Assembly (NCBI GenBank): GCA_902792435.1
Contig: CADAZN010000013.1
Span: 20,241-73,284 of the forward strand
Source of the DNA: an uncultured Bacteroidales bacterium
Lineage (GTDB): Bacteria; Bacteroidota; Bacteroidia; Bacteroidales; Muribaculaceae
Direction: 5' to 3'
Length of the DNA stretch: 53,044 nt
Shown here: in pieces, positions 1,921-44,069 of the stretch
Position numbering within the stretch: the first letter of the stretch is position 1
How the letters are laid out: the number at the start of each line of letters is the position of its first letter
Program-made: the position numbers and the translations under genes
Notes under the pieces: generated by a model
The model's database searches: none
What the model was told of the DNA's origin: nothing
The model's input: the letters and a program-made list of their open reading frames with translations, nothing else

Positions 1921-1966
1921 AAAAAAGTCAAAGGCACATTCCTAAGGTTAAAAGGAATGTGCCTTT
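1921..1966 (-). terminator. Intrinsic terminator closing the murein-salvage gene run
   Basis: A perfect 15 bp inverted repeat (1929-1943 and 1952/1953-1966, core AAGGCACATTCC) with a loop of about 9 nt is followed on the minus strand by GAC and six T. It sits just downstream of the SGNH hydrolase stop and separates the long co-directional run from the C10 protease promoter. Confidence 0.85.
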
Positions 1967-1989
1967 GATGATTAGGTGTGGGGAAGGGG

Positions 1990-2661
1990 CTATCGGGTAT
2001 ATTTCCAGATGGCGTCACGCCAAATCAGATATCCAGGGCCCAGCAGGTGCAAGCCATCGTTGGTGAGGTCTTCGCGCAGCTTGCCATTCTTGTCTACGAA
2101 AAGAGGGTAGAGGTTAATCCAAGTCACACCCTGGCGCTTGCATACCTCTTCCATTGCACGGTTTCCGTCGATTACCACCTGCTCGCGACCTTTGAGGAGC
2201 TTCCACATCTGCACGTCGGTGTTAAATGGTAGCATCGACTGCAGATATATCTTGGTGTGTGGACAGCGTTGCTTGATGAGGACAATAAGTTTCTCCATAG
2301 CCCTTCCTATGCTGTCGCCATCAACGCCGTGCGACACATCGTTCACACCACTGAGGATGAAAATCTTGCGTGGCTTTCCCTTGAGGATTGGCTCCATGCG
2401 CTCATAGAGGCCTTGCACTATGTCGCCAATGATGCCGCGGTTCTTCACATGAGGGTTGCGGAGCAGCTCGTTCCACTCGGCACCATCGGTAAGGCTGTTG
2501 CCAAGCATGATGATGTCGCGGCGATGTACGGGCAGGTCGTCGAAGTGGGTAGCACGGCGCACATAGTACTTGTCTTGATTGGCAGTGCGCTCAGGCGCTT
2601 GCGCCTGCACAGCAGTAATTGCTGCGATGACTGCGATTAACAACAATATAGTTCGTTTCAT
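1990..2661 (-). CDS. SGNH/GDSL-family hydrolase, exported
   Basis: 223-residue exported esterase/acetylhydrolase-type protein with a signal peptide (MKRTILLLIAVIAAITAVQA). SGNH blocks seen: block I GNSLTDG with nucleophile Ser56; the Asn block GVND (Asn107); block V DGLH (Asp202, His205). The length and motifs fit the short GDSL family related to sialate O-acetylesterases and platelet-activating-factor acetylhydrolases. It is the last gene of the run, 26 bp after murQ and directly before the terminator. That position suggests removal of O-acetyl groups from murein sugars or glycans before uptake (inference). The substrate cannot be read from sequence; another acylated glycan is equally possible. 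Confidence 0.85.
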   Translation of the reverse strand: MKRTILLLIAVIAAITAVQAQAPERTANQDKYYVRRATHFDDLPVHRRDIIMLGNSLTDGAEWNELLRNPHVKNRGIIGDIVQGLYERMEPILKGKPRKIFILSGVNDVSHGVDGDSIGRAMEKLIVLIKQRCPHTKIYLQSMLPFNTDVQMWKLLKGREQVVIDGNRAMEEVCKRQGVTWINLYPLFVDKNGKLREDLTNDGLHLLGPGYLIWRDAIWKYTR

Positions 2662-2687
2662 AATAAATGTGGTTTGAGGTTACGTTA

Positions 2688-3509
2688 TTATTCGCTTATG
2701 CCACGGTAGGCGTCGCATGCGTTCTTCACGCTGCCGTGAAGTAGTAGCAGTCGCTTTGCCTCGCCGTAGCTGAGGCCAAGTTCGTCGACCACCATGCGTG
2801 TGCCGCGGTCCACGAGTTTCTGATTGGTGAGTTGCATGTTCACCATCTTGTTGCCCTTCACGCGTCCCATCTGAATCATGACGCTAGTTGAAATCATATT
2901 ACAGATGAGTTTTTGGCCTGTTCCGCTCTTCATGCGGCTACTGCCAGTGACGTATTCAGGTCCAACAATCATCTCGATGGGAATCTCGGCAGCCTCGCTG
3001 ATGGGGGCGTCGGGGTTGCTGGTGATGGCAGCGGTGAGGCATCCATGGGCACGGGCGTCGCGCAGGGCACCAATCACATAGGGTGTGGTGCCACTGGCTG
3101 CGATGCCTATAACGGTGTCGTTGCTAGTGATGTTGTGCTCTTGCAGGTCTTTCCAGCCCTGAGCCTCATCGTCCTCGGCGTTTTCCACGGCATTGCGCAA
3201 GGCATAGTCACCTCCAGCAATCAACCCAATAATCCACCCTGGGTCCATGCCGAAGGTGGGGGGTATCTCGCTTGCATCGAGCACACCGAGACGGCCGCTG
3301 GTGCCGGCACCCATGTAGAAGATGCGTCCTCCTCGTTTCATTCTCTTCACTATCTCAGTGACGAGTTTCTCGATTTGTGGAATGGCCTTCTGCACGGCGT
3401 CGGCGACCTTGTGGTCTTCTTGGTTGATCTCGGTCAACAGCTCATGTACGCTCTTCTTCTCTAGGTCGTCATAGAGAGATGGCTGTTCGCTAATTTTAAT
3501 AAAAGCCAT
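2688..3509 (-). CDS. murQ: N-acetylmuramic acid 6-phosphate etherase
   Basis: Cytoplasmic SIS-domain lyase that cleaves the D-lactyl ether of MurNAc-6-phosphate to give GlcNAc-6-phosphate and D-lactate. The family signature is clear: GGRIFYMGAGTSGRLGVLD followed by ASEIPPTFG, with the catalytic Glu81 in that block; a conserved acidic AEDDEAQG segment; the sugar-phosphate loop IAASGTTPYVIGAL; and GSSRMKSGTGQK. At 273 aa it is slightly shorter than the roughly 300 aa E. coli enzyme. It lies directly after the putative MurNAc kinase gene, separated only by a short heptad-repeat spacer. It anchors the murein-salvage interpretation of the whole gene run. Confidence 0.96.
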   Translation of the reverse strand: MAFIKISEQPSLYDDLEKKSVHELLTEINQEDHKVADAVQKAIPQIEKLVTEIVKRMKRGGRIFYMGAGTSGRLGVLDASEIPPTFGMDPGWIIGLIAGGDYALRNAVENAEDDEAQGWKDLQEHNITSNDTVIGIAASGTTPYVIGALRDARAHGCLTAAITSNPDAPISEAAEIPIEMIVGPEYVTGSSRMKSGTGQKLICNMISTSVMIQMGRVKGNKMVNMQLTNQKLVDRGTRMVVDELGLSYGEAKRLLLLHGSVKNACDAYRGISE

Positions 3510-3515
3510 AACTCA

Positions 3516-3550
3516 TTAAGTATTAAGTTATAAGTATTAAATGCTAGGTG
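3516..3550. repeat. Degenerate heptad repeat between murK and murQ
   Basis: Five consecutive 7-mers read TTAAGTA, TTAAGTT, ATAAGTA, TTAAATG, CTAGGTG. The array fills most of the 58 bp spacer between the two genes. Confidence 0.7.
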
Positions 3551-3567
3551 TTTTTTGCTATTCTTAA

Positions 3568-4416
3568 TTAAGCATTGGTAGAGTGATACTTGATGAGGCC
3601 TTCCATTGGAGCTTGAATGATGTTGCCAATGGTGATGCCAAGTTTGCTGGCAGCCTCAATGAGAACGTCCTTCTGGAGCAATGCTATCGAACCCACGAAA
3701 TTGCAAGGAAGTTCCTTGTAGTGTGGATAGTTGGCGACGTTGCGAACGAAGAAATCGGTGAACGAGCGAAGCACGAGAGCATGGATTGATGGCTCGTTGA
3801 TGTTGCGCTCAATGAATGGTGCAAACTGTGCCAAGAATCGGTTGGCGGCAGGTTTGCGATACACACGTTCGATAATGGTGGTTCGGTCAAGGTTATATTC
3901 CTTGAGGAACTTCTCGCACAGGTGCTCGGGAAGTTGTTTCTTGAGCACGTCGCCAACGAGCAATTTGCCCAGCACGGCGCCGCTGCCCTCGTCGCCCAGG
4001 ATGTAGCCAAGAGGCGATACGTTGTCAACAACTTTCTCGCCGTCGTAGTAGCAGCTGTTGCTACCAGTGCCCAGGATACAGGCGATACCAGGCTCGCGTT
4101 GGCACAATGCGCGTGCTGCAGCAAGCAGGTCGGTATCGACTTCAATCTTTGTCACATGTGGCATGTTGCGTTTGAGGGCGTTGATAACCTGATTCTTAAT
4201 CTTGTCGCTGATAATGCCGGCACCATAGTAGTAAATCTCGGTTACCTCATAGCCTTGCAAATTGGGCATGAGTTCGGTCATGATGCATTCGGCCATCTCT
4301 TCCTCGGTCATGAGCAATGCGTTCATGCCTGTGGTGAAAATTTGAGCAACTTTTTTGTTTCCGTTTAGCAGACACCAGTCAATCTTGGTGGAGCCGCTGT
4401 CAGCAATTAAAATCAT
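3568..4416 (-). CDS. murK: BadF/BadG/NAGK-family sugar kinase, probable MurNAc kinase
   Basis: 282-residue ASKHA-fold kinase. The phosphate-1 motif IADSGSTKIDW (Asp6) is intact; probable catalytic Asp96 lies in VDTDLLAAARAL; GTGSN (116-120) and GDEGSG (141-146) form the phosphate-2 region; and FVGSIA is the adenosine motif. The family covers GlcNAc kinase and the MurK GlcNAc/MurNAc kinases. Its place between a NagX/MurT-type membrane protein and murQ matches the order I recall for murTKQ in Tannerella. The likely substrate is therefore free MurNAc, made into MurNAc-6-phosphate for MurQ (inference from context). GlcNAc is the main alternative substrate. A paralogue with an altered ATP motif lies at 19845-20714. 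Confidence 0.85.
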   Translation of the reverse strand: MILIADSGSTKIDWCLLNGNKKVAQIFTTGMNALLMTEEEMAECIMTELMPNLQGYEVTEIYYYGAGIISDKIKNQVINALKRNMPHVTKIEVDTDLLAAARALCQREPGIACILGTGSNSCYYDGEKVVDNVSPLGYILGDEGSGAVLGKLLVGDVLKKQLPEHLCEKFLKEYNLDRTTIIERVYRKPAANRFLAQFAPFIERNINEPSIHALVLRSFTDFFVRNVANYPHYKELPCNFVGSIALLQKDVLIEAASKLGITIGNIIQAPMEGLIKYHSTNA

Positions 4417-4490
4417 AATGTTATATTTTATAGTTTGTTATTGAATTATCGGAATAGGGAATTGTCATCGTGAACGTGAACTGGTTTCTG

Positions 4491-4530
4491 TCCTCTTGTC
4501 CCCTCGTTCTCTTGTCCTCTTGTCCTCTAA
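4491..4530. repeat. Degenerate octad repeat downstream of the NagX/MurT gene
   Basis: Five 8-mers read TCCTCTTG, TCCCCTCG, TTCTCTTG, TCCTCTTG, TCCTCTAA. The array runs into the stop codon (4527-4529) of the upstream gene and lies in the 110 bp spacer before murK. Confidence 0.75.
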
Positions 4531-5684
4531 ATTTTGATATATATTTTCTTCTTATAAAGGATATAGCCAAAGCACCAAGTGATGCACACAAAGATGATGG
4601 CATAGAGGCATGAGGCAGCTTCGGGCGACCAAGTGATGGCCTTGCAGCCGTCGTGGATGAGAGTGTGAATAGTAATTGGGTCACCGTCGGCATTGGTGCC
4701 GAAACGCAATGCACCAAATGTGATGGCTAGAAGTGTGCCAACCAAGTAGCAGAACAATGGGTTGATGCCAAATGACTGGAAGAAGCGGCACCAACGGTTG
4801 TGGCCCTTTATGTCGATAGCATAGATAAGCATAGCCAGGATGCACGAAGCCATACCGCAAGTTATAAGCACATAGCTCGAGGTCCATGCCTTCTTGCTGC
4901 ATGGAATGCCATATTGTAACAACCAGCCCACGAGCAGCATGAGTGAACCCCACACAGCGATTTCGACAATGCGGTCTTGATTCTTGTGCACTGTGTTGAT
5001 GCACTTGCCCACCATGAAGCCAATGAGAACATGGGCGATGCAAGGCAGGGTGCTGAGGATGCCCTCGGGGTCGAGGGCGAGTTTCTCGCCGAATGCCTCC
5101 TCATGATACATGTGGTCCTCGCCAAGCACGGCGCAGTCCACACGCGACAGGATGTTATCAAGCGAGAACTCATAGCCGTTACCCAAGCCTAAAATCAAGG
5201 CATAGGCAATGAGGATAATTCCTATTATCCAGGGGATGAATTTACTCTTGAAAAGCACTGCAATCATCGACCCGAAGAAGTAAACGAGCGCTAAGCGCTG
5301 GAACACGCCCAGGATGCGCAGGTCGCCAAACATCTTGGCAAAGAAGTGCGACTCGGGGTCATAAAGTCCTCTCAGCCACATGCCAAACCACTGCACTACC
5401 CATCCAATGAGGAAGAGGATAATAGTGCGTCGGCATATCTTGAGCATGAGGCTGCCGCTGAGCTTGAAATTAAACTTGCGCAGCGAGAAGAACATCGACA
5501 CACCCATCACAAACATGAAGAACGGGAACACCAAGTCGGTGGGTGTGAGCCCTATCCACTCAGCATGTTCCAGCGGAGCATAAATATTGCTCCACGTTCC
5601 TGGATTGTTGACCAGGAGCATTCCTGCTATTGTGATTCCTCGCAATATGTCAAGCGAGAGTAGTCGTTTTGAATCTTTTGCCAT
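4527..5684 (-). CDS. NagX/MurT-type polytopic membrane protein (heparan-glucosaminide acetyltransferase-like)
   Basis: 385-residue integral membrane protein with about ten hydrophobic segments. The N-terminus LLSLDILRGITIAGMLLVNN followed by a PTDLVFPFFMFVMGVSM segment is the hallmark of the COG4299 family (DUF5009, related to lysosomal HGSNAT). Bacterial members next to amino-sugar genes were named NagX and predicted to transport GlcNAc. I recall the Tannerella MurNAc transporter MurT as belonging here, and the order here (this gene, kinase, murQ) matches murTKQ. The best reading is an inner-membrane MurNAc uptake protein. A trans-membrane acyltransferase acting on amino sugars is the alternative. 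Confidence 0.8.
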   Translation of the reverse strand: MAKDSKRLLSLDILRGITIAGMLLVNNPGTWSNIYAPLEHAEWIGLTPTDLVFPFFMFVMGVSMFFSLRKFNFKLSGSLMLKICRRTIILFLIGWVVQWFGMWLRGLYDPESHFFAKMFGDLRILGVFQRLALVYFFGSMIAVLFKSKFIPWIIGIILIAYALILGLGNGYEFSLDNILSRVDCAVLGEDHMYHEEAFGEKLALDPEGILSTLPCIAHVLIGFMVGKCINTVHKNQDRIVEIAVWGSLMLLVGWLLQYGIPCSKKAWTSSYVLITCGMASCILAMLIYAIDIKGHNRWCRFFQSFGINPLFCYLVGTLLAITFGALRFGTNADGDPITIHTLIHDGCKAITWSPEAASCLYAIIFVCITWCFGYILYKKKIYIKI

Positions 5685-5715
5685 ATATCTTTGTTGAAAA
5701 ATATTAAGAGTTTAT

Positions 5716-8502
5716 CTATTTAACTACTTTACTAACTTCGTCTATCAAGTAGATGAGCGACTGGTAGGGCACACCGCTGTGGGTGCTGAGCCCAATCTCA
5801 CAGGTGCGGCTGTTGCTGAAGCCACGCTTGATGCCTGCTGCTTCGATTTGTGGGCGCAATTTGCGCAGAGCGTAGGCGTTGAGCTCGGGATGAGTGAATC
5901 CCTTGTCGCCAGCAAAGCCGCAGCATCCCACTCCCTCGGGCACTAGCACGCGGGTAGAGCATCGCTTGGCGAGGTCGAGTATCTTGCCATCAATCTTCAT
6001 TAGCTTCGACGAACAAGTAATATGAAGAGCGATGGGCTCATCGGTAGGATTGAACTCCAAGTCTTGCGCCACATAGTCATGAATGAACTCCATAAGTTCC
6101 ATGGGCTTGATTTCTTTCATGTGCTCACGCATGTGGTGCAGGCACGGACTCTGGTCGCACACAATGGGCAAGTTGCCGCCATCGCTAGCTTTGAGCAAAG
6201 CTTTCTCTAGTTCATCGGTCTTTTGCTGGGCAATGTCGGGCATGCCCTTGCTGTTCCAAATCATGCCACAACACAGGTTGCTCATGTTTTCGGGATAGAT
6301 GACTTCCCATCCAGCCTTGTTAAGGAACGCAACAACTTTGTCAACAAGGTCAACCTTCACACCATGCTTGTCACGTCCCAAAGCTTGGTTGAGGCAGCTG
6401 GGGAAGTACACAACTTTTTTGTCGCTTGCAGCTTGCTCCAGAGCCTTCATTTTGTGTGGCTTAGGAGTGGATGGAGTCCACAATGGAGCACCAATCGCAT
6501 GCATAGCTTTGCCCACTGCTTTAACGCCACCATCGCCCAGCACCGATTGTGCAGCACTGGCGACATATAGAAGCGACTTGATACTGTCTTTGGTAACAGC
6601 AAAGTGACGAGCCACTTGACTGCCAATGCTATGGGCTGCAGAGCCTTTACTATGCTGTTCGGCACGAATGTCGTGGGTGAGTTCGCCCACGTTTATGCCC
6701 ATGGGGCATGAGGTGGAGCACAGGCCATCGGCGGCGCAGGTAGCTTCACCATAGTATTTATATTGTTTTTCGAGGCGCTTCAATCGCTCTGGATCTTCGC
6801 CTGTATCTTTTAATCGAGAAATCTCACGCTGCACTATGATGCGCTGGCGCGATGAGAGAGTGAAACCGCTGCTCACGCAGTTAACCTCGCAGAATCCACA
6901 CTCGATGCACTTGTTCACGTTGTCGTTGGTCAAGGGCATGGGTTTGAGGTTCTTGATAAAGCACTCGGGGTCATCATTGAAAATAACGCCAGGATTCAAG
7001 ATTCCATTAGGGTCAAAGAGCTTCTTAACGTCAAGCATCACTTGATAGGCCTTCTCTCCCCATTCTTTCTTCACGAAGGGTGCCATGTTGCGGCCGGTGC
7101 CATGCTCTGCCTTGAGCGAACCGTCATATTTGTCGATAACCAGTTCCACAACGGCGCGCATCAAGTTTTCATAGCGCTTGATTTCTTCCTGGGTGTCAAA
7201 TGACTGTGAAATGATGAAGTGATAGTTGCCCTCAAGGGCATGGCCGTAGATGCAGCTGTCGTCGTAGCCATAGTCCTCAAGCATCTGAGCAAGGTCGACC
7301 GTTGCTTGTGGCAAATCCTCGATATGGAATGCCACATCCTCAATGAGCACTGTGGTGCCAAGTGGACGGGTACCGCCCACACTGGGGAAGATGCCTGATC
7401 GTATCGCCCAATACTTACCATAGACCTTAGGGTCGTCGGTGAAGACGGCAGGCACGTACAGGTGGAACGGCTCAAGGATAGCCATTATTTCATCGATGTT
7501 GCTTTGCAGTTCTTCTTTGCTGTCGGCAAAGGTTTGGATGAGTACCGCAGTAAGGCCTTCGCCTGTGTTATCGTCAACGCTAGCGAGCGATTTCTTGTCG
7601 AGAATCTCGGCGCAGTGTACTGGACCTTTCTTCATTGCCACCACAGCCTCGCACGACTCGCGCATGTCTTGGAAATAGAGCATTGCGCTGGCGCGGTAGG
7701 GGTAGAGGTGTCCGGTTTTCATCGTGAACTCGCTGGCAAAAGCCAATGTTCCCTCGCTACCCACTATCAAGTGAGTAATGATGTCGAATGGGTCAGTATA
7801 TAGTACAAATGGCGAGATGTTCAGGCCTGTCACGTTTTTGATGGAATACTTGCGGCGAATGCGCTCAACAAGCTCTTTGTCGGCCATAACGCGGTCACGA
7901 ATGTCCTCTATGCACTTGATGAATTCGGGATGCGACTGTCTGAAAGCTTCGCGGCTTGCCTCATCGCCAGTGTCAAGCACGGTGCCGTCGGCAAGGACTA
8001 TGCGCATTGACTGCATCATGCGGTCGCTATTGGCGTGGGTGCCACAGCTCATTCCGCTGGCGTTGTTGATAACTATGCCTCCCACCATTGCCGAGTTTTT
8101 GCTGGCAGGGTCGGGAGTGAAAGCGCGGTTGTGTCGCGCAAGAATCTTATCTACCTCACTTCCCACAAGTCCCGGTTGCAGCTTGATGTAGCTGGAGTCG
8201 GGTGCTACCTCATAGCTCTCCCAATTCTTGCCTGCAACGATGAGGATGGAGTCGGTGTTGGTCTGTCCGCTCAGGCTGGTGCCTGCAGCGCGGAATGTCA
8301 CCGGCAGCTGCATCTCATTGGCAATGGCAAGCAGCTGCGCCACTTCTTGCTCATTCTTTGAGCGCACAACTATCTGCGGGATGTTGCGATAGAAGCCAGC
8401 ATCGGTTCCCCACGCTAGGCAGTGCAGGTCATCGGTGTAGATGCGCTCCTTTGGGATAAACTCCGCTATGCGCTTGAGATATGTCTTGTGGTTCTCGTCC
8501 AT
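5716..8502 (-). CDS. FAD-binding and Fe-S oxidoreductase, D-lactate dehydrogenase-like
   Basis: 928-residue fusion of a GlcD/DLD-type flavoprotein with a GlpC-type iron-sulfur module. An FAD_binding_4 domain (residues about 40-210, with TFRAAGTSLSGQ and the GGIVINNASG loop) is followed by the FAD-oxidase C-terminal domain (about 240-500, with EHGTGRNMAPF). Two ferredoxin-type clusters follow (CIECGFCEVNC from Cys532, and CAADGLCSTSCPMG near 589). Two CCG heterodisulfide-reductase-like motifs end it (CCGMIWN near 744, CCGFAGDKG near 860). Such proteins oxidise D-lactate, D-2-hydroxyglutarate or glycolate and pass electrons to the respiratory chain. Sitting in the murQ run, D-lactate freed from MurNAc-6-phosphate is the obvious substrate (inference). 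Confidence 0.9.
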   Translation of the reverse strand: MDENHKTYLKRIAEFIPKERIYTDDLHCLAWGTDAGFYRNIPQIVVRSKNEQEVAQLLAIANEMQLPVTFRAAGTSLSGQTNTDSILIVAGKNWESYEVAPDSSYIKLQPGLVGSEVDKILARHNRAFTPDPASKNSAMVGGIVINNASGMSCGTHANSDRMMQSMRIVLADGTVLDTGDEASREAFRQSHPEFIKCIEDIRDRVMADKELVERIRRKYSIKNVTGLNISPFVLYTDPFDIITHLIVGSEGTLAFASEFTMKTGHLYPYRASAMLYFQDMRESCEAVVAMKKGPVHCAEILDKKSLASVDDNTGEGLTAVLIQTFADSKEELQSNIDEIMAILEPFHLYVPAVFTDDPKVYGKYWAIRSGIFPSVGGTRPLGTTVLIEDVAFHIEDLPQATVDLAQMLEDYGYDDSCIYGHALEGNYHFIISQSFDTQEEIKRYENLMRAVVELVIDKYDGSLKAEHGTGRNMAPFVKKEWGEKAYQVMLDVKKLFDPNGILNPGVIFNDDPECFIKNLKPMPLTNDNVNKCIECGFCEVNCVSSGFTLSSRQRIIVQREISRLKDTGEDPERLKRLEKQYKYYGEATCAADGLCSTSCPMGINVGELTHDIRAEQHSKGSAAHSIGSQVARHFAVTKDSIKSLLYVASAAQSVLGDGGVKAVGKAMHAIGAPLWTPSTPKPHKMKALEQAASDKKVVYFPSCLNQALGRDKHGVKVDLVDKVVAFLNKAGWEVIYPENMSNLCCGMIWNSKGMPDIAQQKTDELEKALLKASDGGNLPIVCDQSPCLHHMREHMKEIKPMELMEFIHDYVAQDLEFNPTDEPIALHITCSSKLMKIDGKILDLAKRCSTRVLVPEGVGCCGFAGDKGFTHPELNAYALRKLRPQIEAAGIKRGFSNSRTCEIGLSTHSGVPYQSLIYLIDEVSKVVK

Positions 8503-8506
8503 TTTT

Positions 8507-8538
8507 TGCTAGATGTTCTATAAATGCTAGATGCTCTA
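8507..8538. repeat. 14 bp direct repeat between namZ and the FAD/Fe-S gene
   Basis: TGCTAGATGTTCTA (8507-8520) and TGCTAGATGCTCTA (8525-8538) differ at one base and have an 18 bp period. They fill the 38 bp spacer between two genes. The CTAG-containing words resemble the repeat at 36751-36787. Confidence 0.65.
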
Positions 8539-8540
8539 GA

Positions 8541-9794
8541 TTAATGATAGAGATAGTATTTTGATGACTTGGCTTTGAAAGCCTCGGTGTCTTTGTTGAA
8601 GTAGTCGACGATATCGGCTACTTTGTAACGTTTGCAGAAAAGCTCGCGAATCTCCTTGGTGCCGCACACCTTGTCAAACATTGCGTAGCGCTTAGGATTC
8701 TGCTCAAAGAGCTCCTGCTTGGGATACATCTCGTGAATCACTTGCAGGAAATAGAACTGGGTGAGTACGAGGTTGGCCTTGTCAAAGTCGGTGATATAAA
8801 TCTGCACACCATGCACTTCCTGCAACGACTTGTCGACTGCCACGCTCAAGGCAAAGAATGGCTTGTAGTTGATGGGGCGGAAATGCATTCCCGGCAGGTT
8901 CAATGCGTTCATGTTCTTGGCGAGCTCCTCGGCATCAATCCATGAGGCGGCAAAGCATTCGAATGGCAGTGTGTAGCCAATGCCGGTGTTGAAAATATAC
9001 AACTCGCCAAGGATGCCACTCACGGGATAGAAAAATGCGTTCTCGGGAGCAGGAATTTGCGGTGATGGCAGCACCCAGGGCATGCCAGTGTCGCGGAACT
9101 TCATGTCGCGAGTCCAGCCCTCCATAGGGATAACTGTAAGTTTGCATTTCTTACCGGTCTTCGACTCCTTGCCTATAATGCCCTCCTCGTTTAGGTACTG
9201 GGCAAGTTCGCCAGGTGTAAGGCCATAAAGGTAGGGTATAGCATATTTGCTAACAAAAGAGAAATAACCAGGCTCTACTAGATTGCCTTCCACTTTATTT
9301 CCACCCAATGGGTTGGGGCGGTCAAGGACCATAAACTCTTTATCATACTTGGCACATGCTTGCATGCATACGCCCATTGTGGCATAGAAAGTGTAGCTGC
9401 GGCATCCTATGTCTTGGATGTCGTATATGAGCACATCGATGTCTTTAAGCATCTCGGCAGTGGGCTCATGGGTCTTGCCATAGAGAGAGTACATTTTCAC
9501 GCCAGTTGCTGGGTCAACAGCATCGGCTACCTTGTCGCCGGCATGAGCATTACCACGCACGCCATGCTCGGGACCAAAAAGAGCGACAAGCTTCACTCCT
9601 TTAGCCTCATTGAGAATATCGACTGTTGATTTAAGGTTATTGTCGATACCGCTGGGGTTGGTTACCAGTCCCACGCGCTTGCCTTGCAGCTCCTTGAAGC
9701 CACCATCGCGCAGCACTTCAATACCAGGCTTAACCACCGCGCTGGCAGCCATAGCCACCACTACAAGAGCCATCAATATAATGTGTCGTTTCAT
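8541..9794 (-). CDS. namZ: DUF1343 exo-beta-N-acetylmuramidase (NamZ family), exported
   Basis: 417-residue exported protein. NamZ enzymes remove terminal MurNAc from the non-reducing end of peptide-free murein chains. Family landmarks seen: RVGLVTNPSGID, FGPEHGVRG (Glu76, His77), YSLYG, DVLIYDIQDIGCRSYTF and VLDRPNPLGG. The chosen ATG (9794) begins a clean signal peptide (MKRHIILMALVVVAMAASA). An in-frame ATG at 9818 would add eight charged residues before it and is less likely. It lies between the AmpG-like permease and the D-lactate-dehydrogenase-like gene and would supply free MurNAc to the kinase-MurQ branch. Confidence 0.92.
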   Translation of the reverse strand: MKRHIILMALVVVAMAASAVVKPGIEVLRDGGFKELQGKRVGLVTNPSGIDNNLKSTVDILNEAKGVKLVALFGPEHGVRGNAHAGDKVADAVDPATGVKMYSLYGKTHEPTAEMLKDIDVLIYDIQDIGCRSYTFYATMGVCMQACAKYDKEFMVLDRPNPLGGNKVEGNLVEPGYFSFVSKYAIPYLYGLTPGELAQYLNEEGIIGKESKTGKKCKLTVIPMEGWTRDMKFRDTGMPWVLPSPQIPAPENAFFYPVSGILGELYIFNTGIGYTLPFECFAASWIDAEELAKNMNALNLPGMHFRPINYKPFFALSVAVDKSLQEVHGVQIYITDFDKANLVLTQFYFLQVIHEMYPKQELFEQNPKRYAMFDKVCGTKEIRELFCKRYKVADIVDYFNKDTEAFKAKSSKYYLYH

Positions 9795-9824
9795 AAATTC
9801 TTTTTTTAAAAACTTCATGTTACT

Positions 9825-11153: not shown

Positions 11154-11181
11154 TGTTATAGTGTTTTGATGTGAATGCTAA

Positions 11182-12507: not shown

Positions 12508-12513
12508 AGTGTG

Positions 12514-13473
12514 TTATCTTTTAGAATAGTAATATTGTCTTAATTTCGTTGAAACATCCTCTACATCTTGTGGTGAAAGGCACACGTCCATATAGATGAG
12601 AGTAATGTCATGCAGTGTGAGGTTGTTAAAGTCTTCTTCTCGTGCAATAGCCCACAAGCCGCCCATATCGACCGACGCAGGGCTCAGCACAAACTGATCC
12701 TCACCAGTGCCATAGCAGGCTGGCCGGTGCTTGCGCCGTGGAAACACAGCAATGCACAAAGCGCCACTATTGTGCCAGCACAGGATGTTGATCATTGGTT
12801 CGACGTGCCCATTTTTCACTGGTAACACATCCTGCAGTGAGTTGAACCATTGTTCTCCTAAATCGATACTCATAGTTTCGATATAAAAAACTGGTCGACC
12901 CAATTCGGTTATAACACCAAAAATGCCTCGATTGTTGGCATCAAATAATGCTGTGTTTGCAGTGAAAAGCTCATCGCAAATGGGCAACTCATCGATGCTA
13001 CCGGCTTGGAAATGCATATGGTCAGGAGCCGAAGCTCCGCAACGTGGACCATTGTAGAAAACCACATAACCTGGAAGGTCTTTGGCAAGGTGCATCATGT
13101 CGGTAATGCGACCATCAATGCGTTGTGGTGAATGCTCCAAAGCTGAGATAGTGAGATGCCGTGAGAAGATGGGGTAGGGGTTAACCTGCATTTTGTAACG
13201 TCCTTCCCACATCACAGTTTCCTGTTCCTTGGGCTGGTTCTTGTCGCACAAGAAGCATGGCCTTGCCTTGAGCGAGGCGTAATCAATGTCTGCCGACGAC
13301 GACTTCAATCGCTCAGGATTATACTGCAACACAATTGAAGAATCTCCCAACTCCACAACGCGAGTTGTGACATTGGCGAGGTAGCCATAATTTTTGATTA
13401 CGGCATCCCACTTAGTCAACTGTCGTTGCCAAAGATGGTCGATTTCTTCAATATAGTTGCATGTCATAGGCAT
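12514..13473 (-). CDS. DUF4922 HIT-superfamily protein, phosphorylase/nucleotidyltransferase-like
   Basis: 319-residue cytoplasmic protein. The diagnostic stretch is PDHMHFQAGS, giving an HxHxQ triad (His152, His154, Gln156) like those of GalT, Ap4A phosphorylase and GDP-L-galactose phosphorylase. A CxxC (Cys73, Cys76 in RPCFLCDKNQ) may bind zinc, as in GalT relatives. NPYPIFSRHLTI is the typical strand before the active site. I recognise it as DUF4922 from memory. A nucleotide-sugar or sugar-1-phosphate transfer reaction is likely; the substrate is unknown. It is packed tightly with the SpoIID gene (6 bp) and a glycosyltransferase (4 bp), so the three are probably translated from one message. 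MTC at 13467 is an alternative start. Confidence 0.75.
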   Translation of the reverse strand: MPMTCNYIEEIDHLWQRQLTKWDAVIKNYGYLANVTTRVVELGDSSIVLQYNPERLKSSSADIDYASLKARPCFLCDKNQPKEQETVMWEGRYKMQVNPYPIFSRHLTISALEHSPQRIDGRITDMMHLAKDLPGYVVFYNGPRCGASAPDHMHFQAGSIDELPICDELFTANTALFDANNRGIFGVITELGRPVFYIETMSIDLGEQWFNSLQDVLPVKNGHVEPMINILCWHNSGALCIAVFPRRKHRPACYGTGEDQFVLSPASVDMGGLWAIAREEDFNNLTLHDITLIYMDVCLSPQDVEDVSTKLRQYYYSKR

Positions 13474-13477
13474 AGAC

Positions 13478-14962
13478 TTATTTCTTGTTCAACGCAATGC
13501 GAGCCATGAGCTCCCATGTGCGTATGCGGTCCTTATAAAGGTTGTTATTGTTCATCTTAACAACATCTACATTGGCGTCGCTGTTGTCGTCCCAGCGGCG
13601 GCACATGTACACGGGCTCATACACACGACCTATCTGGTAGGTGCGAGAAATGTTAAGTCCAAGTGCATAGTCCTCGCCGTAGCTCACGTTTGGAAGCATC
13701 ACGTCACGCAACACAGGAGTGTAGAATGCGCGAGGCGCTCCAAGTCCGTTGATGCGCAGAGCGTTGTTGCGGCCATTCTCGGGAGTCCATTCTTTGTGGT
13801 CGATTACGCCGGGAGGAATGGGGTTACAGTGGATATCGGTCATCAAGTAGGTGCCCACAACCATTGCCACATTCTGCTCATAGAAGGCGTTAACCATAGT
13901 CTGAAGAGTGTTCTCGTCCTTGTACATGTCGTCACTGTCGAGTTGAACCACAAACTTGCCTGCCTTTGAGTGATGAGCGGCAAGGTTCCAGTAGCCACCA
14001 ATACCCATGTCATAGTGGTCGGCAATAATGTGAATCAAGCGTGGATCGTTATATTCGGCGATTGCCTCGCGGGTGCCATCGGTCGAGAAGTTGTCAATCA
14101 CCATGAGGTTGAAATTGAAGTTGGTCTTCTGATTCAGAACACTGTCGATGGCGTCGCGAATTGTGCGGATGCGGTTGCGCACGGGAATCATCACTGTTGC
14201 TTCCACCTCAAACTTGTCGTGGTCAAACTCAATGTGCTTGAAGTTGGGAACTTCCTTGCCGTCAACCACCTTGGTGGGAGCCAAGTAACCGCCTATCTCC
14301 TTCAGGTGCTCGGTGCATGCTGCCTCCATCTCAATTTGGCGACCACGGTTGCGTGGGTCTACATAGTCGAAAATCTTCTCGCCACTCTTGCGTGTGTCGA
14401 GCTCGACGTCACTATAGAGATACTCGTTGATGTGAGTGATGGGAGCAAATTGCGATAGCTTGAGGCGCAAGTCATAAAGACCTGCAAACTCATATGTCGA
14501 CTTCATGGCAGCTGCTGCTTTCTTGAAGCACTCACCACAGAACACGAGCACTGAGCCAAAGTCAAAGTCATCGCGCAGAGAGCCCATTTGGTAATCAATC
14601 ACGGGAGCCTTGTCTGCCCCTTTGTCGGTCACATTATAGTGGTCGGCATATACCATACCGCTTTGGGTGTCGGCGAGAATCTTCACGAAGCGATCGATGG
14701 CGTAAGGCGCAAATTTCAGTGTCACATACTTGGTGTAAAGCATTGTCACGCAAGCGTCGCTCTTCTCGGCAATAGCCTTGATAGTGGCGGTAGAGTTAAG
14801 GTTGTTGATCTTAAGCATCTCGCAGCCCTCGATGGTGCCTTGTGCCTCGTCGTTGGCGAGCAAATAGATTTTGTTCACTAATGGATTGGATTTCAATCCA
14901 TCAACTGTAGCCTGTGCCTGCTCGGCGTTGGCAAAGGGGATAAAGCAATTAATCTTTGTCAT
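13478..14962 (-). CDS. Family 2 glycosyltransferase with two GT-A-like halves (paralogue 1)
   Basis: 494-residue protein. The C-terminal half (about 255-490) is a canonical GT2 domain: ATVMIPVRNRIRTIRDAIDS, LMVIDNFSTDGT, VVQLDSDDMY (metal-binding DSDD) and the acceptor-side SYGEDYALGL. The N-terminal half looks like a second, degenerate GT-A fold (CVTMLYTKYVTLKFAPYAID, then SGMVYADHYN and SLRDDFDFGSVLVF). I chose the ATG at 14962 (MTKINCFIPF); the ATG at 14995 would overlap the neighbouring gene. The C-terminus LYKDRIRTWELMARIAL matches the adjacent paralogue. Donor and acceptor are unknown. No signal peptide or membrane anchor is seen. Confidence 0.85.
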   Translation of the reverse strand: MTKINCFIPFANAEQAQATVDGLKSNPLVNKIYLLANDEAQGTIEGCEMLKINNLNSTATIKAIAEKSDACVTMLYTKYVTLKFAPYAIDRFVKILADTQSGMVYADHYNVTDKGADKAPVIDYQMGSLRDDFDFGSVLVFCGECFKKAAAAMKSTYEFAGLYDLRLKLSQFAPITHINEYLYSDVELDTRKSGEKIFDYVDPRNRGRQIEMEAACTEHLKEIGGYLAPTKVVDGKEVPNFKHIEFDHDKFEVEATVMIPVRNRIRTIRDAIDSVLNQKTNFNFNLMVIDNFSTDGTREAIAEYNDPRLIHIIADHYDMGIGGYWNLAAHHSKAGKFVVQLDSDDMYKDENTLQTMVNAFYEQNVAMVVGTYLMTDIHCNPIPPGVIDHKEWTPENGRNNALRINGLGAPRAFYTPVLRDVMLPNVSYGEDYALGLNISRTYQIGRVYEPVYMCRRWDDNSDANVDVVKMNNNNLYKDRIRTWELMARIALNKK

Positions 14963-14981
14963 GATGTTATATGTATTTTGA

Positions 14982-16421
14982 TTATTTATTTTCACATTTC
15001 AGTAGTGCCTTTCGCGCTTGAACTTCCCAAGTGCGAAGTCGGTCTTTATAGATGTTGTTGGCGTTTTCTTGCTCAATGCTGAGGTCGGAATCGGTGTTTT
15101 CGTCGCCACGGCGGGCAAGGGTCATCACGTCCCACACTCTTCCCACGCGATAATGGCGTGAAATCATCAACCCCATGCCATAGTCCTCGCCATAGCTGCT
15201 GCATGGCAGACAAATGCGGCGATAGATAGGGGTGAAGAATGCGCGGGGACCACCAATGCCATTAACCCTTAGCAGGTTGTTTCGGCCATTCTCAAAAGTC
15301 CACTCGCGGTGTGCAATGATGCCTGGAGGCACTTCTTGCAGGTCGTTATTGACAACCTTGTAGCTGCCCACGACCATTGCGGCGTTATCCTCATAAAATT
15401 TGGAAATCATAGTCTCCAAAACATGAGGTGTGGCAAACATATCGTCACTGTCAAGCCCTATCGCAAAGCGTCCGCAGCGCTCATCATAGATGCCGAAGTT
15501 CCAACATCCGCCAATTCCCAAATCACGTCGATTAGGGATGATGTGAATCAAGCGTGGGTCGCTAACAAACTCATCAATAGCCTCACTAGTGCCATCGGTT
15601 GAGTGGTTGTCGATAACAATGAGATTGAATTTGAAAGGCGCATCTTGAGTTAATACACTCTTTATGGCATCGCGAATAACATTCACGCGATTGAGAACAG
15701 GAATAATCACTGAGCACTCAACAGGAAACTCTCCCTCGCTCAAGTCAACGTCTTCATAACGCTTGGGTGGCAGATAGGCACCAATCTTTGTCAAATGCCA
15801 AGTGCACACGGCCTCCATTTCTTTTTGTTTCTCAGCTTCCTTCTCAAGCTGATAGTCAAAGATGCGCTCACCACTGCTGCGCAGGTCGATTTCATCGCAT
15901 GTATAGAGATACTCGGGAATGTGCACAATCTTACCTAATCGCGACAATGCCAGTCGCACAGCATAGAAACCAGCATATTCAAGCTTTTTTAAATCCTGCT
16001 TGATTTCCATGCATGCTTTGAACAAATAGTCGCAATTAATCATTACAACGGGCCCAAAATCGAAGTCATCACGTAGCGAACCTTCTTGGCAGTCAATGAC
16101 AGGATGCTTAACAATCGAGTAGTTAGGCAAGCGATTGTAATGGTCACAATAGACCATAGCAGCATCGGTGTCTTGTGCCACCTTGATCATGCGGCGCAAC
16201 GCCATGTGTCCCATTGCTAAATAATTGACAGGACTCAACACATATATGACATATTTTGAGTTACCACCACTATGGAGGGCTTCATAGCTGTGTAGCCATG
16301 ACATATCATCATGTCGTTGTGGCTCGAACTCAAAATGTGTTCCGAGCAATAAGTCTCCATCACAGGTTGTGATGGTGGCTCCGCGATGGGTGATGAATGG
16401 TATTCGTGATGAATCTTCCAT
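14982..16421 (-). CDS. Family 2 glycosyltransferase with two GT-A-like halves (paralogue 2)
   Basis: 479-residue paralogue of the next gene downstream, from an old tandem duplication. The canonical GT2 domain is C-terminal: CSVIIPVLNRVNVIRDAIKS, LIVIDNHSTDGT, AIGLDSDDMF, SYGEDYGMGL. The N-terminal half has MVYCDHYNRLPNY and SLRDDFDFGPVVM, the same degenerate GT-A features as its partner. Its end (IYKDRLRTWEVQARKAL) aligns with the partner's end. It starts 24 bp after the golvesin-split amidase gene. Linkage to an HIT-like nucleotidyl enzyme suggests the pair consumes a sugar nucleotide made or salvaged by the locus (inference). Confidence 0.85.
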   Translation of the reverse strand: MEDSSRIPFITHRGATITTCDGDLLLGTHFEFEPQRHDDMSWLHSYEALHSGGNSKYVIYVLSPVNYLAMGHMALRRMIKVAQDTDAAMVYCDHYNRLPNYSIVKHPVIDCQEGSLRDDFDFGPVVMINCDYLFKACMEIKQDLKKLEYAGFYAVRLALSRLGKIVHIPEYLYTCDEIDLRSSGERIFDYQLEKEAEKQKEMEAVCTWHLTKIGAYLPPKRYEDVDLSEGEFPVECSVIIPVLNRVNVIRDAIKSVLTQDAPFKFNLIVIDNHSTDGTSEAIDEFVSDPRLIHIIPNRRDLGIGGCWNFGIYDERCGRFAIGLDSDDMFATPHVLETMISKFYEDNAAMVVGSYKVVNNDLQEVPPGIIAHREWTFENGRNNLLRVNGIGGPRAFFTPIYRRICLPCSSYGEDYGMGLMISRHYRVGRVWDVMTLARRGDENTDSDLSIEQENANNIYKDRLRTWEVQARKALLKCENK

Positions 16422-16445
16422 TGTGGATAGTTTGGATTGCAGTTT

Positions 16446-19400
16446 TTATTTGTTCTCGAAGAAGTTGAGCACGCGCTCCATAAATTCGTTGCGCTCGCTA
16501 TCGTTCTTGATGGTTTCAAATGGGAATCCTACTACTACGGTCTTGTAGCCGTTGCGGCTTGATGCGATACCAGCAGGAATGTTGTTCTCGCTGTAGCGCA
16601 AGATAGTTGCTCCCTTATTGTCGCTAGCCTTGATGGCGTCGGGCGACTCTACAGCATAGAAGTCGCTGTTGAGGGTGTTGTGGAATGTGAGCTTGCCCAT
16701 GCCGTCGCTCATCTTGAGCACGGTAGGCACGCTATAGGCCTCGCCGGTGAGGGTGGCGCGACCGTCAACCCATGTGTAACCCATTACATTTTGGGCAAAG
16801 TTCTTTTCGTTGCCTTTGGGATTTTCTTTGTCCCAAATGTCGCTGCCCACATAGGCACCAGTCATCAACACACTTCCGCCATTGCGTGTGAAGTTTGTGA
16901 TAGCGTTCATCATGCCAGGGGTGAATGCCTTGAAGCGAGAGGGCTTGGCTCCGCGGCCAGTAGGAATCTCTTTTTGCTTGCCAAGGATAACGTCTAAAGC
17001 GTAATAATTTGTCAAGTCAACATTGTTGTTGTCGATGGCTTTCACGCTTGAAGACACGAACGAGTAGCCAGCTTCCATAATCGCTTTGCCGTGGATGGCA
17101 GGGTAGTTAAATGTGTTGCCGGCAATGTTCTGAGTCTCATGATTGCTACGGCAGGCACCAAAGCCTGGGGCATCGTCGTCGCGCCATTGCAGGTTGCGGC
17201 GGAACTCAAATTGAGAACCAAGGTAGTTGATTTGCTCCATGTAGGGAACACCATGGTCTTTGCCGTCGTAGAAACCGGCCATCTTGCCGCTGTCAAACCA
17301 GTCAGGACCACTCACGCGGGTAAAACTGTTGACAACCATCACTGTGCCTTTGCTGTTCTTAGCAACTCCCACACTCAAGGTCTCGCTTGGGAAGCTGCGT
17401 CCACCTTCGTTCATAGCTATGATTTTGAAGCTGTGAATCTCATTGTCGGTTATATAGGCCGAGTAGTGAGGCTCGTCAACAATCTCCACCTCTTTGAAAC
17501 CTCCGTCGGTGCCCACTTGTTCGAGCACGATGTATTGCTTAGCTTGTGCGCTTGAGCACAATGGGTCGGTTGTTGGTTCCCAGTTGAGCATGTAAAGGTT
17601 GTCGCTGAGCTTGTTGATGACAAATGAATTAACGGGCAATGGTTGTATCACGCACTCGCGATGGTCGCGCTTGGCGATAAATTTGGCGATACCCTTATAG
17701 ATGGCGCGGCTCACGTCGAAACGGAACTCTGGGTCCAATCCATATTTCATGTCGGCAAAGTTCTGATGTGACAGCAACTCCATGAGCAGTGCGGGAACTT
17801 CAGGTACGCGAGCCTCATAGTAGCTCTTGTCCCACATGCCACGACGAGTCCAGTTGGGCTCATACTTGGCGCGGATGTCGTTCACAACCTCGGTAGAAAC
17901 GATGTTGGCAAACTGTCTTGACAGCTCACGGGGAGTGCCGTTCTCATATTTTCCAAACTGCTTACCGTTCTTGGTTGTGCAGTAGATGAGAAGGGTGCCG
18001 ATGATATCGTCATTCTGGGTGGTGCCAGCATCGGTGTGGAGGCAGAACGATACGTCAACAGGAACTTTAAGGCCTGGCTTGCCGGGCAACACGTCGCTGC
18101 CGCCTGCCAGCCAGTTGACCCACTCACCGCGGCTGCGGTAATCGTCAACGTAGTCGTTGATGCCGTCGCTGGTCGAGTACACCTTGTGAGGAAATCCCGA
18201 CCACTGCAGGAAGTAGCGTGAGCCCAAGTGGAACCAGGGGTGGTCACCGCTGCCCAGATATTGGTAGTCAATACCCTCTTTGCCCAGATATTTCATATCA
18301 TCATTCTTCTCGGCAATAGCAATGTTCTCGGGAGTTGGAAGTGCCACGCGACGCACGATGTTGCCCTTGCCGCCGCCCACCTTGATGGCATCGGCGGTGA
18401 TAACAGCATTCTTTTGGTTGCTGTGGTTGTCAAGTGTCACAACACTCTTGTTCATGCCCTTGGCGAGCTGGAACGAACCTATGTAAACCCACACGCCACC
18501 TGCCATAGATTGGTCAACTACAAACTGACTGCTTCCTTCAAGCGAGTTGACAGTGTAGGTTGCGTCATGTGCGCTGTTGGGGAGTGATTTGTAGCTCACG
18601 TAGATGGCATAGGTGCCTGCCTCGGGCATATCTACGTCCCACGATGCGTGGGCAAGCTTGTTGCGGTCGGTCTCAGTCTCTACCATACGGTAGGAACCTT
18701 CCTCAAAAGGATTCTCAAAGTCTTTATATTCGCTGCGGTTATAAGCAAAACCTTTGCCTTCACCGTTTTTCCATTTCTTCTTTCCGTTGTTCTCGTGATA
18801 ACCTTTTTGGGCATGCCCTCCGTCATTGTCAACCACGGCACCAAAGTTGTGGGTGTCGCGCTCGCGGGCGTCCCAAACATAGGCTCCTGCATTCTCGAGC
18901 ATGGGCATGATGAAGGGAATCATGTAGCTGTGAGTGTACATGTCCTCAACGGTCTGGAACAGGCGGGCACGCTGCCACTCCCAGCGGTTGAGGTAGGGTT
19001 CAAAGTACCAGCCGTGACTGGGCCACACTGCAACAATGTTGCCACTCAAGCCTTTCTTGTATTGACGATTTGCGTCAACAGGGGTGATAAATGAGTTGTG
19101 CTTGCGCTGATAGCTTGCTTCAAAGTCCGAGAAGTAGTTTTCGATATCGTTGCCGGCAATGGTGAGATACACGTTGTGGTTGCCAAAGTCTTCGCCCAGC
19201 ACGCTCTTGATATCGCTCTTTAACTTGGTAACGCTTTCGCGCGTAAAGGGTATGTCGCCAAAGTTCTCACTCAAGTCCACTTTGATGGAGTCGTCTACTA
19301 CTTCAATGGCATTAGCTTTGAGGTTGCCGATGCCCATTTTGTCGGGCAATAGAGAGGCAACAGCTTTTTGTATGCTCTCTTTCTGTGTGTCTTTTATCAC

Positions 19401-19520
19401 TAGAACAGTTTTCTCAATCTCATTATTCTCGATGTCGTTAATCTCAATGTCTTGAGCTGAGAGGGTGTTGCCAATTAAAGATGCAAGGCACGCTAAAAAA
19501 ATCTTTGATATTATTTTCAT
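16446..19520 (-). CDS. Exported amidase_3-type protein split by a golvesin-like domain
   Basis: 1,024-residue exported protein of the kind often labelled 'xanthan lyase/golvesin' in Bacteroidales. It has a signal peptide (MKIISKIFLACLASLIGNTLSA). I read an N-acetylmuramoyl-L-alanine amidase core in two pieces: His169 in VAVWPSHGWYFEP and Glu181 in RWEWQRARL, then His495 in SFCLHTDAG and Glu581 in PALLMELLSHQN. Between them sits a golvesin-type beta domain (about 285-390, with AGTYAIYVSYK and VYIGSFQLAKG). A fibronectin-like module (about 625-710) and a ThuA/glutamine-amidotransferase-like C-terminal part (with SVLMTGAYVGSDIWD) follow. The predicted role is removal of stem peptides from murein outside the cytoplasm. 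It heads the run and has its own upstream AT-rich promoter zone. Confidence 0.8.
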   Translation of the reverse strand: MKIISKIFLACLASLIGNTLSAQDIEINDIENNEIEKTVLVIKDTQKESIQKAVASLLPDKMGIGNLKANAIEVVDDSIKVDLSENFGDIPFTRESVTKLKSDIKSVLGEDFGNHNVYLTIAGNDIENYFSDFEASYQRKHNSFITPVDANRQYKKGLSGNIVAVWPSHGWYFEPYLNRWEWQRARLFQTVEDMYTHSYMIPFIMPMLENAGAYVWDARERDTHNFGAVVDNDGGHAQKGYHENNGKKKWKNGEGKGFAYNRSEYKDFENPFEEGSYRMVETETDRNKLAHASWDVDMPEAGTYAIYVSYKSLPNSAHDATYTVNSLEGSSQFVVDQSMAGGVWVYIGSFQLAKGMNKSVVTLDNHSNQKNAVITADAIKVGGGKGNIVRRVALPTPENIAIAEKNDDMKYLGKEGIDYQYLGSGDHPWFHLGSRYFLQWSGFPHKVYSTSDGINDYVDDYRSRGEWVNWLAGGSDVLPGKPGLKVPVDVSFCLHTDAGTTQNDDIIGTLLIYCTTKNGKQFGKYENGTPRELSRQFANIVSTEVVNDIRAKYEPNWTRRGMWDKSYYEARVPEVPALLMELLSHQNFADMKYGLDPEFRFDVSRAIYKGIAKFIAKRDHRECVIQPLPVNSFVINKLSDNLYMLNWEPTTDPLCSSAQAKQYIVLEQVGTDGGFKEVEIVDEPHYSAYITDNEIHSFKIIAMNEGGRSFPSETLSVGVAKNSKGTVMVVNSFTRVSGPDWFDSGKMAGFYDGKDHGVPYMEQINYLGSQFEFRRNLQWRDDDAPGFGACRSNHETQNIAGNTFNYPAIHGKAIMEAGYSFVSSSVKAIDNNNVDLTNYYALDVILGKQKEIPTGRGAKPSRFKAFTPGMMNAITNFTRNGGSVLMTGAYVGSDIWDKENPKGNEKNFAQNVMGYTWVDGRATLTGEAYSVPTVLKMSDGMGKLTFHNTLNSDFYAVESPDAIKASDNKGATILRYSENNIPAGIASSRNGYKTVVVGFPFETIKNDSERNEFMERVLNFFENK

Positions 19521-41756: not shown

Positions 41757-41830
41757 AACTTTTATATAGTTTGTTCTCATTAATATCTTTCGTGTGTATT
41801 AGGTAACAAAATATCGCAGGTCAAAGTGTT

Positions 41831-44035: not shown

Positions 44036-44069
44036 AAACATATATTTTTTTCAAAAATTAAAGTCGATG

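Follow-up and report, generated by a model that had tools for sequence, protein, structure and literature searches.

The window analysed here, a stretch of 53,044 nucleotides, comes from contig CADAZN010000013.1 (forward-strand positions 20,241 to 73,284) of an uncultured Bacteroidales bacterium of the Muribaculaceae (assembly GCA_902792435.1), whose genome measures 2.96 Mb and is 93% complete. Between 19520 and 1990 its minus strand carries twelve co-directional genes of a murein-salvage locus. The new part of this locus is a set of three genes, encoding a family 2 glycosyltransferase (GT2), a DUF4922 protein and a SpoIID protein, while the salvage genes around them and their two uptake routes are already known. 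The features are listed below in the direction of transcription, with the evidence for each name (MurNAc, N-acetylmuramic acid).

19845..20714, minus strand: K1058-type N-acetylhexosamine kinase (closest PDB structures 8ow7, E 5.5e-99, and 8oqk, E 2e-98)
16446..19520, minus strand: exported amidase-like protein (profile search, Golvesin_C, with Amidase_3 under its cut-off; hydrophobic N-terminus)
14982..16421, minus strand: GTa, a paralogue of GTb (GT2 profile match, motif comparison)
13478..14995, minus strand: GTb, a tandem GT-A family 2 glycosyltransferase without signal peptide (PF00535, motifs, model)
12514..13473, minus strand: DUF4922 protein, HIT/GalT-Ap4A-phosphorylase-like, with HxHxQ (PF16269, E 1.4e-60)
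11182..12507, minus strand: SpoIID/LytB protein without signal peptide, called type A below (PF08486, TIGR02669)
9825..11153, minus strand: AmpG-like muropeptide permease (TIGR00901 below cut-off; similarity to Tannerella forsythia)
8541..9818, minus strand: NamZ exo-N-acetylmuramidase, exported (PF07075 and PF20732, both above cut-off; hydrophobic N-terminus)
5716..8502, minus strand: FAD/4Fe-4S oxidase, proposed D-lactate dehydrogenase (family match; substrate putative)
4527..5684, minus strand: MurT-type MurNAc transporter, NagX-like (similarity to the gene in MurT position on T. forsythia contig L109)
3568..4416, minus strand: MurK MurNAc kinase (closest PDB structures 8oqw, E 4e-93, and 8ow9, E 1e-92)
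2688..3509, minus strand: MurQ MurNAc-6-phosphate etherase (SIS / GKRP domains; similarity to the L109 gene in MurQ position)
1990..2661, minus strand: exported SGNH hydrolase, the last gene (PF13472)
1921..1968, minus strand: intrinsic terminator, a perfect 16-bp hairpin and T-run (read from the sequence, with folding energy)

In profile searches, the twelve families follow each other as Golvesin_C with a sub-threshold Amidase_3, GT2, GT2, DUF4922, SpoIID, an AmpG-like MFS protein, NamZ, FAD/4Fe-4S oxidase, a NagX-like protein, a BadF-type kinase (sub-threshold), a MurQ-like SIS protein and SGNH. The gaps between them, taken from the ends of the open reading frames (ORFs), are 24, -14, 4, 6, 28, 6, 38, 31, 110, 58 and 26 bp, and the terminator hairpin (-25.8 kcal/mol, z -9.15) lies 21 bases beyond the last stop codon. 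A generic terminator scan of the window predicted 11 terminators against 19.2 expected by chance and missed this one, whose loop measures 9 where the scanner accepts at most 8; Rfam and tRNA scans of the window gave no match. The original prediction of twelve tightly spaced co-directional genes ended by a terminator is thus confirmed, and gene order kept in other genomes rules out a chance run. Its extent has to be corrected, as the co-directional kinase 324 bp upstream is probably part of the system.

The locus represents an extended form of an operon already known. Published work on T. forsythia (PMC5388701, PMC7670621) includes Tanf_08345-08385, nine genes on a single transcript, and the published legend lists a xanthane lyase, two 'gtf' genes, lytB, ampG, ybbC and then murTKQ. 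On contig L109 of T. forsythia ATCC 43037 we found AMI, GT2, DUF4922, SpoIID, AmpG, NamZ, MurT, MurK and MurQ in this order on one strand, and the window has the same nine genes, in order and on one strand. Identities to the L109 proteins are 43% for the AMI-like protein (whose counterpart, Tanf_08345, is annotated as 'xanthane lyase'), 63% for GT2, 40% for DUF4922, 62% for SpoIID, 49% for AmpG, 54% for NamZ, 50% for MurT, 54% for MurK, 75% for MurQ and 55% for the K1058-type kinase, which lies upstream in both but is co-directional in the window and on the opposite strand in L109. Beyond the nine shared genes, the window contains GTa, the FAD/Fe-S oxidase and the SGNH hydrolase. In T. forsythia the operon is a single transcript under GppX, whereas in the window its unity is suggested by tight spacing and the terminator. 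AmpG, MurT, MurK and MurQ are reported as tested or characterised in T. forsythia. The proposal that the locus scavenges murein both as free MurNAc and as muropeptides is therefore supported by orthology and, for the same reason, is not new, since both routes are published for T. forsythia (PMC5388701, PMC7670621).

MurT and AmpG are so named for their similarity to the T. forsythia proteins and not by family models, because both profile scores are under their curated cut-offs (126.6 bits against 480 for NagX; 182.7 against 350 for TIGR00901); the earlier NagX/MurT-like and AmpG-like labels hold in this sense, at 50% and 49% identity. The T. forsythia AmpG is reported as functional. The nearest solved structures are those of K1058 for the upstream kinase and of MurK for the kinase at 3568..4416. 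The suggested D-lactate outlet is plausible, with a family match and an oxidase gene in 19/80 related loci, although its substrate is putative.

Neighbourhoods were compared in three sets, in which genes were labelled solely by matches to the window's own proteins. Among 80 titled loci chosen as the best SpoIID matches, a set that favours near relatives and in which many loci end at contig edges, AmpG was labelled in 73, DUF4922 in 69, GT2 in 68, NamZ in 45, MurK in 35, MurT in 31, MurQ in 30, the oxidase in 19 and SGNH in 17. In an even draw of 29 DUF4922 loci over the order, counted from printed maps, GT2 accompanied 24, SpoIID 20 and AmpG 21. Outside the class, 17 hand-picked DUF4922 loci of the same phylum had GT2 nearby in 13 cases, type-A SpoIID in 6, AmpG in 6 and NamZ in 3. 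The original prediction had taken confinement of the cluster to this genome as an argument against itself; the cluster is conserved elsewhere. The two GT2 genes that it named are both present, but they are paralogues and GTb alone belongs to the conserved core, GTa being the best label in only 2/80 loci of the first set. GTa has ARRG at the position of the CRRW motif of GTb, and may have lost or changed its activity.

The three core proteins are moreover repeatedly fused. In the first set, 24/80 loci join two or three parts in one frame (12 DUF4922-SpoIID, 5 GT2-DUF4922, 6 GT2-DUF4922-SpoIID and 1 cut by a contig end), the six complete triple fusions measuring 1260-1298 amino acids and coming from two named isolates and four metagenome-assembled genomes (MAGs). 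Fusions occur in 5/29 loci of the even draw, two further triple fusions (L337 and L338) were found in genomes chosen for long frames, and in the 1260-residue fusion protein of Leyella lascolaii (L149) all three Pfam domains score above cut-off. Assembly errors do not account for the fusions, which are shared by several named isolates and MAGs and which in genome G280 sit within one contig of 3.29 Mb. As a separate observation, three Prevotella-group loci (L140, L165, L167) have a type-A SpoIID beside a distant AmpG (31-40% identity), with neither GT2 nor DUF4922 in the stretch covered.

The SpoIID protein of the window, whose closest titled relative is that of a Muribaculaceae MAG (92% identity), belongs to the SpoIID/LytB family (PF08486, E 8.6e-24, 84.4 bits against a cut-off of 23; TIGR02669, 166.2 against 83.3) and falls below the sporulation equivalog TIGR02870 (110.4 against 234.75). 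E120 and GAGWGHGVGLCQ are invariant across 18/18 aligned SpoIID sequences, and the SSEM glutamate and the GWGHGVGLCQ segment, invariant in these 18, align with solved SpoIIDs including 4rwr; we take the conserved glutamate and GHGVG to be the catalytic motifs. The domain and these motifs, including the SEM glutamate, are shared with the SpoIIDs of spore formers (PDB 4rwr, 5i1t, 5txu), from which the window type differs by the lack of a signal peptide, by a longer middle part with an invariant CADDHCQRYQG and by its fusion to DUF4922 and GT2.

Indeed, the conserved core starts almost immediately, and because the open frame has 443 codons for an ORF of 441 amino acids there is no room for a signal peptide. 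Under a simple hydropathy rule, none of 30 type-A frames showed the hydrophobic N-terminus expected of export to the wall, where the first start codon was taken mechanically and the first 40 residues scored, so that in 7/30 frames, fused (L057, L061, L062, L067) or starting well upstream of SpoIID (e.g., L041, L046, L064), these residues are not SpoIID's own. By the same rule, a hydrophobic N-terminus was found in 0/29 DUF4922 and 1/25 GT2 proteins, and in 4/5 frames of a distant type-B SpoIID (23-26% identity), the fifth of which (L080) scored 2.20, just below the threshold of 2.3. An exported SpoIID with a misplaced start codon is opposed both by the window's frame (443 against 441) and by the fusions. 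SpoIID would thus be cytosolic, since it is fused to proteins without signal peptides, which, if true, would be an unusual use of this domain. GT2, DUF4922 and SpoIID therefore make up one conserved, widespread, repeatedly fused and apparently cytosolic module.

The distribution of the module was followed in a main sample of 119 genomes of the order and a larger one of 392. DUF4922 is found in 30/119 genomes, all 30 with type-A SpoIID, which occurs in the absence of DUF4922 in one genome, G086. An AmpG-like gene is present in 30/30 DUF4922 genomes against 14/89 of the others, none reaching the curated AmpG cut-off. The opposite pattern is seen for AnmK, present in 82/119 genomes, that is, in 4/30 with DUF4922 against 78/89 without. 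In the larger sample, 12 genomes have both, 90 DUF4922 only, 239 AnmK only and 51 neither, so that AnmK occurs in 12/102 DUF4922 genomes against 239/290 others; G151 (E 3e-5) was excluded from this DUF4922 count, whose other matches are at 4e-36 or better. PF16269 also matches Lactococcus and Synechococcus controls, so that weak matches may be other GalT-like proteins. No AnmK match was found in the window's genome at its 93% completeness.

The DUF4922 protein has the features of a HIT/GalT-type nucleotidyl transferase or phosphorylase, as suggested by the residues H152, H154 and Q156 of the HxHxQ motif, invariant in 16/16 aligned sequences, and by the predicted fold (pLDDT 90.1), which matches the yeast Ap4A phosphorylase Apa2 (TM 0.56-0.65) and then GalT-type enzymes. 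It thus shares fold and motif with Apa2, GalT and the GDP-hexose phosphorylases, from which it is nevertheless remote (12-21% identity over the ten best structural matches). GTb has the motifs LDSDD, GED and CRRW, and its model (pLDDT 87.6) is tandem GT-A as judged by the order of elements. Its best PDB match is chondroitin polymerase (K4CP) 2z86 (E 2.6e-20, whole-chain TM 0.40), followed by heparosan synthase 2. The tandem GT-A layout is common to all three, but identities are 11-14%, whole-chain TM is 0.31-0.40, so that the domains match singly and not as a whole, and in the motif alignment the N-terminal half of GTb lacks the usual nucleotide-binding start.

With its motifs intact and polysaccharide polymerases as its nearest folds, GTb could work forwards, and the module would then make or modify a glycan, or glycosylate a protein or lipid, from murein-salvaged sugars, with DUF4922 making or recycling a nucleotide sugar and SpoIID trimming or cyclising the product in the cytosol. 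The 2017 paper, following earlier work, describes the operon of T. forsythia as related to glycosylation. We regard this explanation as unlikely, since the module stands beside AmpG in 73/80 loci, in which matches to the window's own genes were labelled and glycan-export genes were not sought, and the AnmK pattern is not explained by forward synthesis itself.

In Escherichia coli, murein recycling proceeds through AmpG, NagZ, AnmK and MurQ. The window resembles this scheme in its AmpG-type import and MurQ end step, and differs from it in that its genome has neither an AnmK match nor a GH3 protein free of an export signal, and in that three other enzymes stand in the operon instead. All four GH3 proteins of the genome have export signals as judged by eye, and no cytosolic GH3 NagZ was seen, GH20, GH84 and others not having been searched for. 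An imported disaccharide would therefore encounter no cytosolic GH3 NagZ and no AnmK. A NagZ-like GH3 was found in 21/24 sampled genomes (12 with and 12 without DUF4922), with no match in G008, G017 and G037, all DUF4922-positive. By the hydropathy rule it is exported in 9/10 proteins from DUF4922 genomes and 12/13 from the others (exceptions G021 and G033). Since GH3 is exported with and without the module, the need for another enzyme would be attributed to AmpG import. Besides the kinases and MurQ, the GT2-DUF4922-SpoIID set comprises the only apparently cytosolic carbohydrate enzymes of the operon.

Another candidate for the missing AnmK step is the K1058-type kinase, or some further enzyme, with the module acting elsewhere in murein metabolism. 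K1058-type kinases share the broad kinase fold of AnmK, and an orthologue lies directly upstream in the window. In the structural report, 8OW7 is K1058 with MurNAc and 8OW9 is MurK with MurNAc, and K1058 binds MurNAc with poor turnover, its natural substrate being unknown (PMC10465942). A K1058-type gene was, however, within reach in 10/80 module loci, although it could lie elsewhere or beyond contig ends, and we consider this explanation decidedly unlikely.

We favour, with modest confidence, a salvage operon in which a cytosolic GT2-DUF4922-SpoIID module takes over from AnmK the handling of disaccharides imported by AmpG. The conservation and fusion of the module, its lack of a signal peptide, its intact motifs, the co-occurrence with AmpG and the anti-correlation with AnmK are observed. 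On this proposal, the exported amidase and NamZ would cut murein outside the cytosol, MurT would bring in MurNAc and AmpG the disaccharides N-acetylglucosamine (GlcNAc)-(anhydro)MurNAc. MurK and MurQ would convert MurNAc to GlcNAc-6-phosphate and D-lactate, and the FAD/Fe-S oxidase would oxidise the latter. GT2, DUF4922 and the signal-less SpoIID, a single fused protein in many relatives, would form one cytosolic complex acting on the disaccharides. The original prediction had set these three genes apart as an undescribed branch; in the open-access literature they are indeed undescribed, but they seem to belong to the main pathway, as a cytosolic processing step, and not to branch off from it. 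The missing signal peptide of SpoIID, the fusions and the AnmK pattern did not figure in that prediction.

More specifically, the module might be a new cytosolic enzyme replacing both NagZ and AnmK, an idea that we find doubtful and whose details we hold with low confidence. SpoIID might open the 1,6-anhydro ring, which would be lytic transglycosylation reversed, with water or a sugar as acceptor. GT2 might run in reverse, converting the GlcNAc-beta-1,4 bond and UDP to UDP-GlcNAc, and DUF4922 might pull this reaction by phosphorolysis of UDP-GlcNAc with phosphate to GlcNAc-1-phosphate, so that GlcNAc would be split off without a cytosolic NagZ. The stereochemistry of an inverting GT2 is compatible with action on beta-1,4-linked GlcNAc, and reversibility is known for some glycosyltransferases, sucrose synthase among them.

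Several observations weigh against the module standing in for AnmK. Replacement is not strict, because 12/102 DUF4922 genomes keep AnmK, which excludes strict exclusivity, and the control Bacteroides ihuae carries DUF4922, SpoIID, AmpG and AnmK together; conversely, 51/392 genomes have neither DUF4922 nor AnmK. Lack of a cytosolic GH3 NagZ is no mark of DUF4922 genomes, as both groups export NagZ-like GH3. T. forsythia grows poorly on free anhydroMurNAc (anhMurNAc), and its cell extract produces 8.6 times more GlcNAc-MurNAc than GlcNAc-anhMurNAc (PMC7670621), so that the latter is perhaps of minor weight as a substrate. Reverse catalysis by GT2 and reverse transglycosylation by SpoIID are themselves only inferred. 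In addition, one clade of the rpoB tree holds most DUF4922 genomes, an independent-pairs test was not significant (over 200 pairings, means of 0.0 pairs going the same way, 1.7 opposite and 4.3 without difference; median p 0.5), and the within-family effect on AnmK was weak (7 informative families, Mantel-Haenszel odds ratio 0.17, chi-square p 0.06).

These phylogenetic results agree with an AnmK anti-correlation due to shared ancestry only, the module being an ordinary murein recycling part with an unrelated role, e.g., clearing cytosolic glycan side products. We hold this to be improbable, since the direction was anti-correlated in 5/7 informative families, tied in 2 and opposite in none (one-sided permutation p 0.028), and since a dependent-change likelihood test on the rpoB tree of 114 genomes supported dependence for AnmK (likelihood-ratio statistic, LRT, 22.0; p 2e-4), with a higher fitted AnmK loss rate in the presence of DUF4922 (7.06 against 0.23). 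On the same tree the AmpG test gave an LRT of 38.6 (p 9e-8), a fit in which two rates reached their upper bound. Both tests rest on one gene tree that was not bootstrapped, with root weights set equal and a search of limited extent; the tree omits G039, G041, G071, G075 and G080 (no match or a scrap) and includes partial sequences for G062, G042, G086, G118 and G097. Therefore, the association of the module with AmpG is strong, whereas its dependence with AnmK is suggestive, not proven, phylogeny being a partial confounder of the AnmK correlation.

The module is nevertheless a good candidate for a step described as missing. T. forsythia grows on GlcNAc-anhMurNAc with no predicted AnmK, by a route that 'remains to be explored' (PMC7670621), and those working on it regard the handling of anhMurNAc without AnmK, and of AmpG-imported fragments, as unknown. 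Three genes belonging to this very operon may supply the step, and of these DUF4922 stands under a glycosyltransferase label in the published figure legend and another appears as an amidase enhancer: L109:9048-9983, by its order Tanf_08355 and the second published 'gtf', is a DUF4922 protein and not a GT2 (PF16269, E 1.8e-64). In the open-access literature we found no paper on the module beyond those on T. forsythia, a description in subscription journals being possible, and DUF4922 by name appeared there only in two papers on plant GDP-L-galactose phosphorylase (GGP). The superfamily is named for one group of plant GGP proteins in one of them (PMC9871823). If our proposal is true, roughly one in four genomes sampled from the order (DUF4922 in 102/392) would have an AnmK-independent wall-recycling route, and relatives occur in other classes of the phylum; the module is a concrete and directly testable enzyme set.

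Some minor observations concern the locus and its surroundings. In many relatives AmpG has about 545-646 amino acids and carries, at profile position 166/167, a long insert (e.g., L040:12037-13914) that is absent from the 442-residue copy of the window; one insert-bearing AmpG that was scanned had the Pfam domains MFS and BT1 and no others. In the nearest relative, L092, most locus genes are 84-97% identical to those of the window, but DUF4922 is at 52% and AmpG at about 45%, a pattern as if recombination had exchanged both genes in a single lineage. The stretch 20922-23516, upstream of the K1058-type kinase and co-directional with it, encodes another exported amidase, which has an Amidase_3 domain together with Big_5, dockerin and secretion-tail domains, a gene type labelled in 5/80 related loci. 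At the other side, 1-1812 holds the beginning of a large exported protein that continues past the window edge and presumably resembles a C10-type cysteine peptidase. At 39273-44041 lie two adjacent proteins that we take to resemble LysM-bearing lytic transglycosylases of the MltD-like kind.

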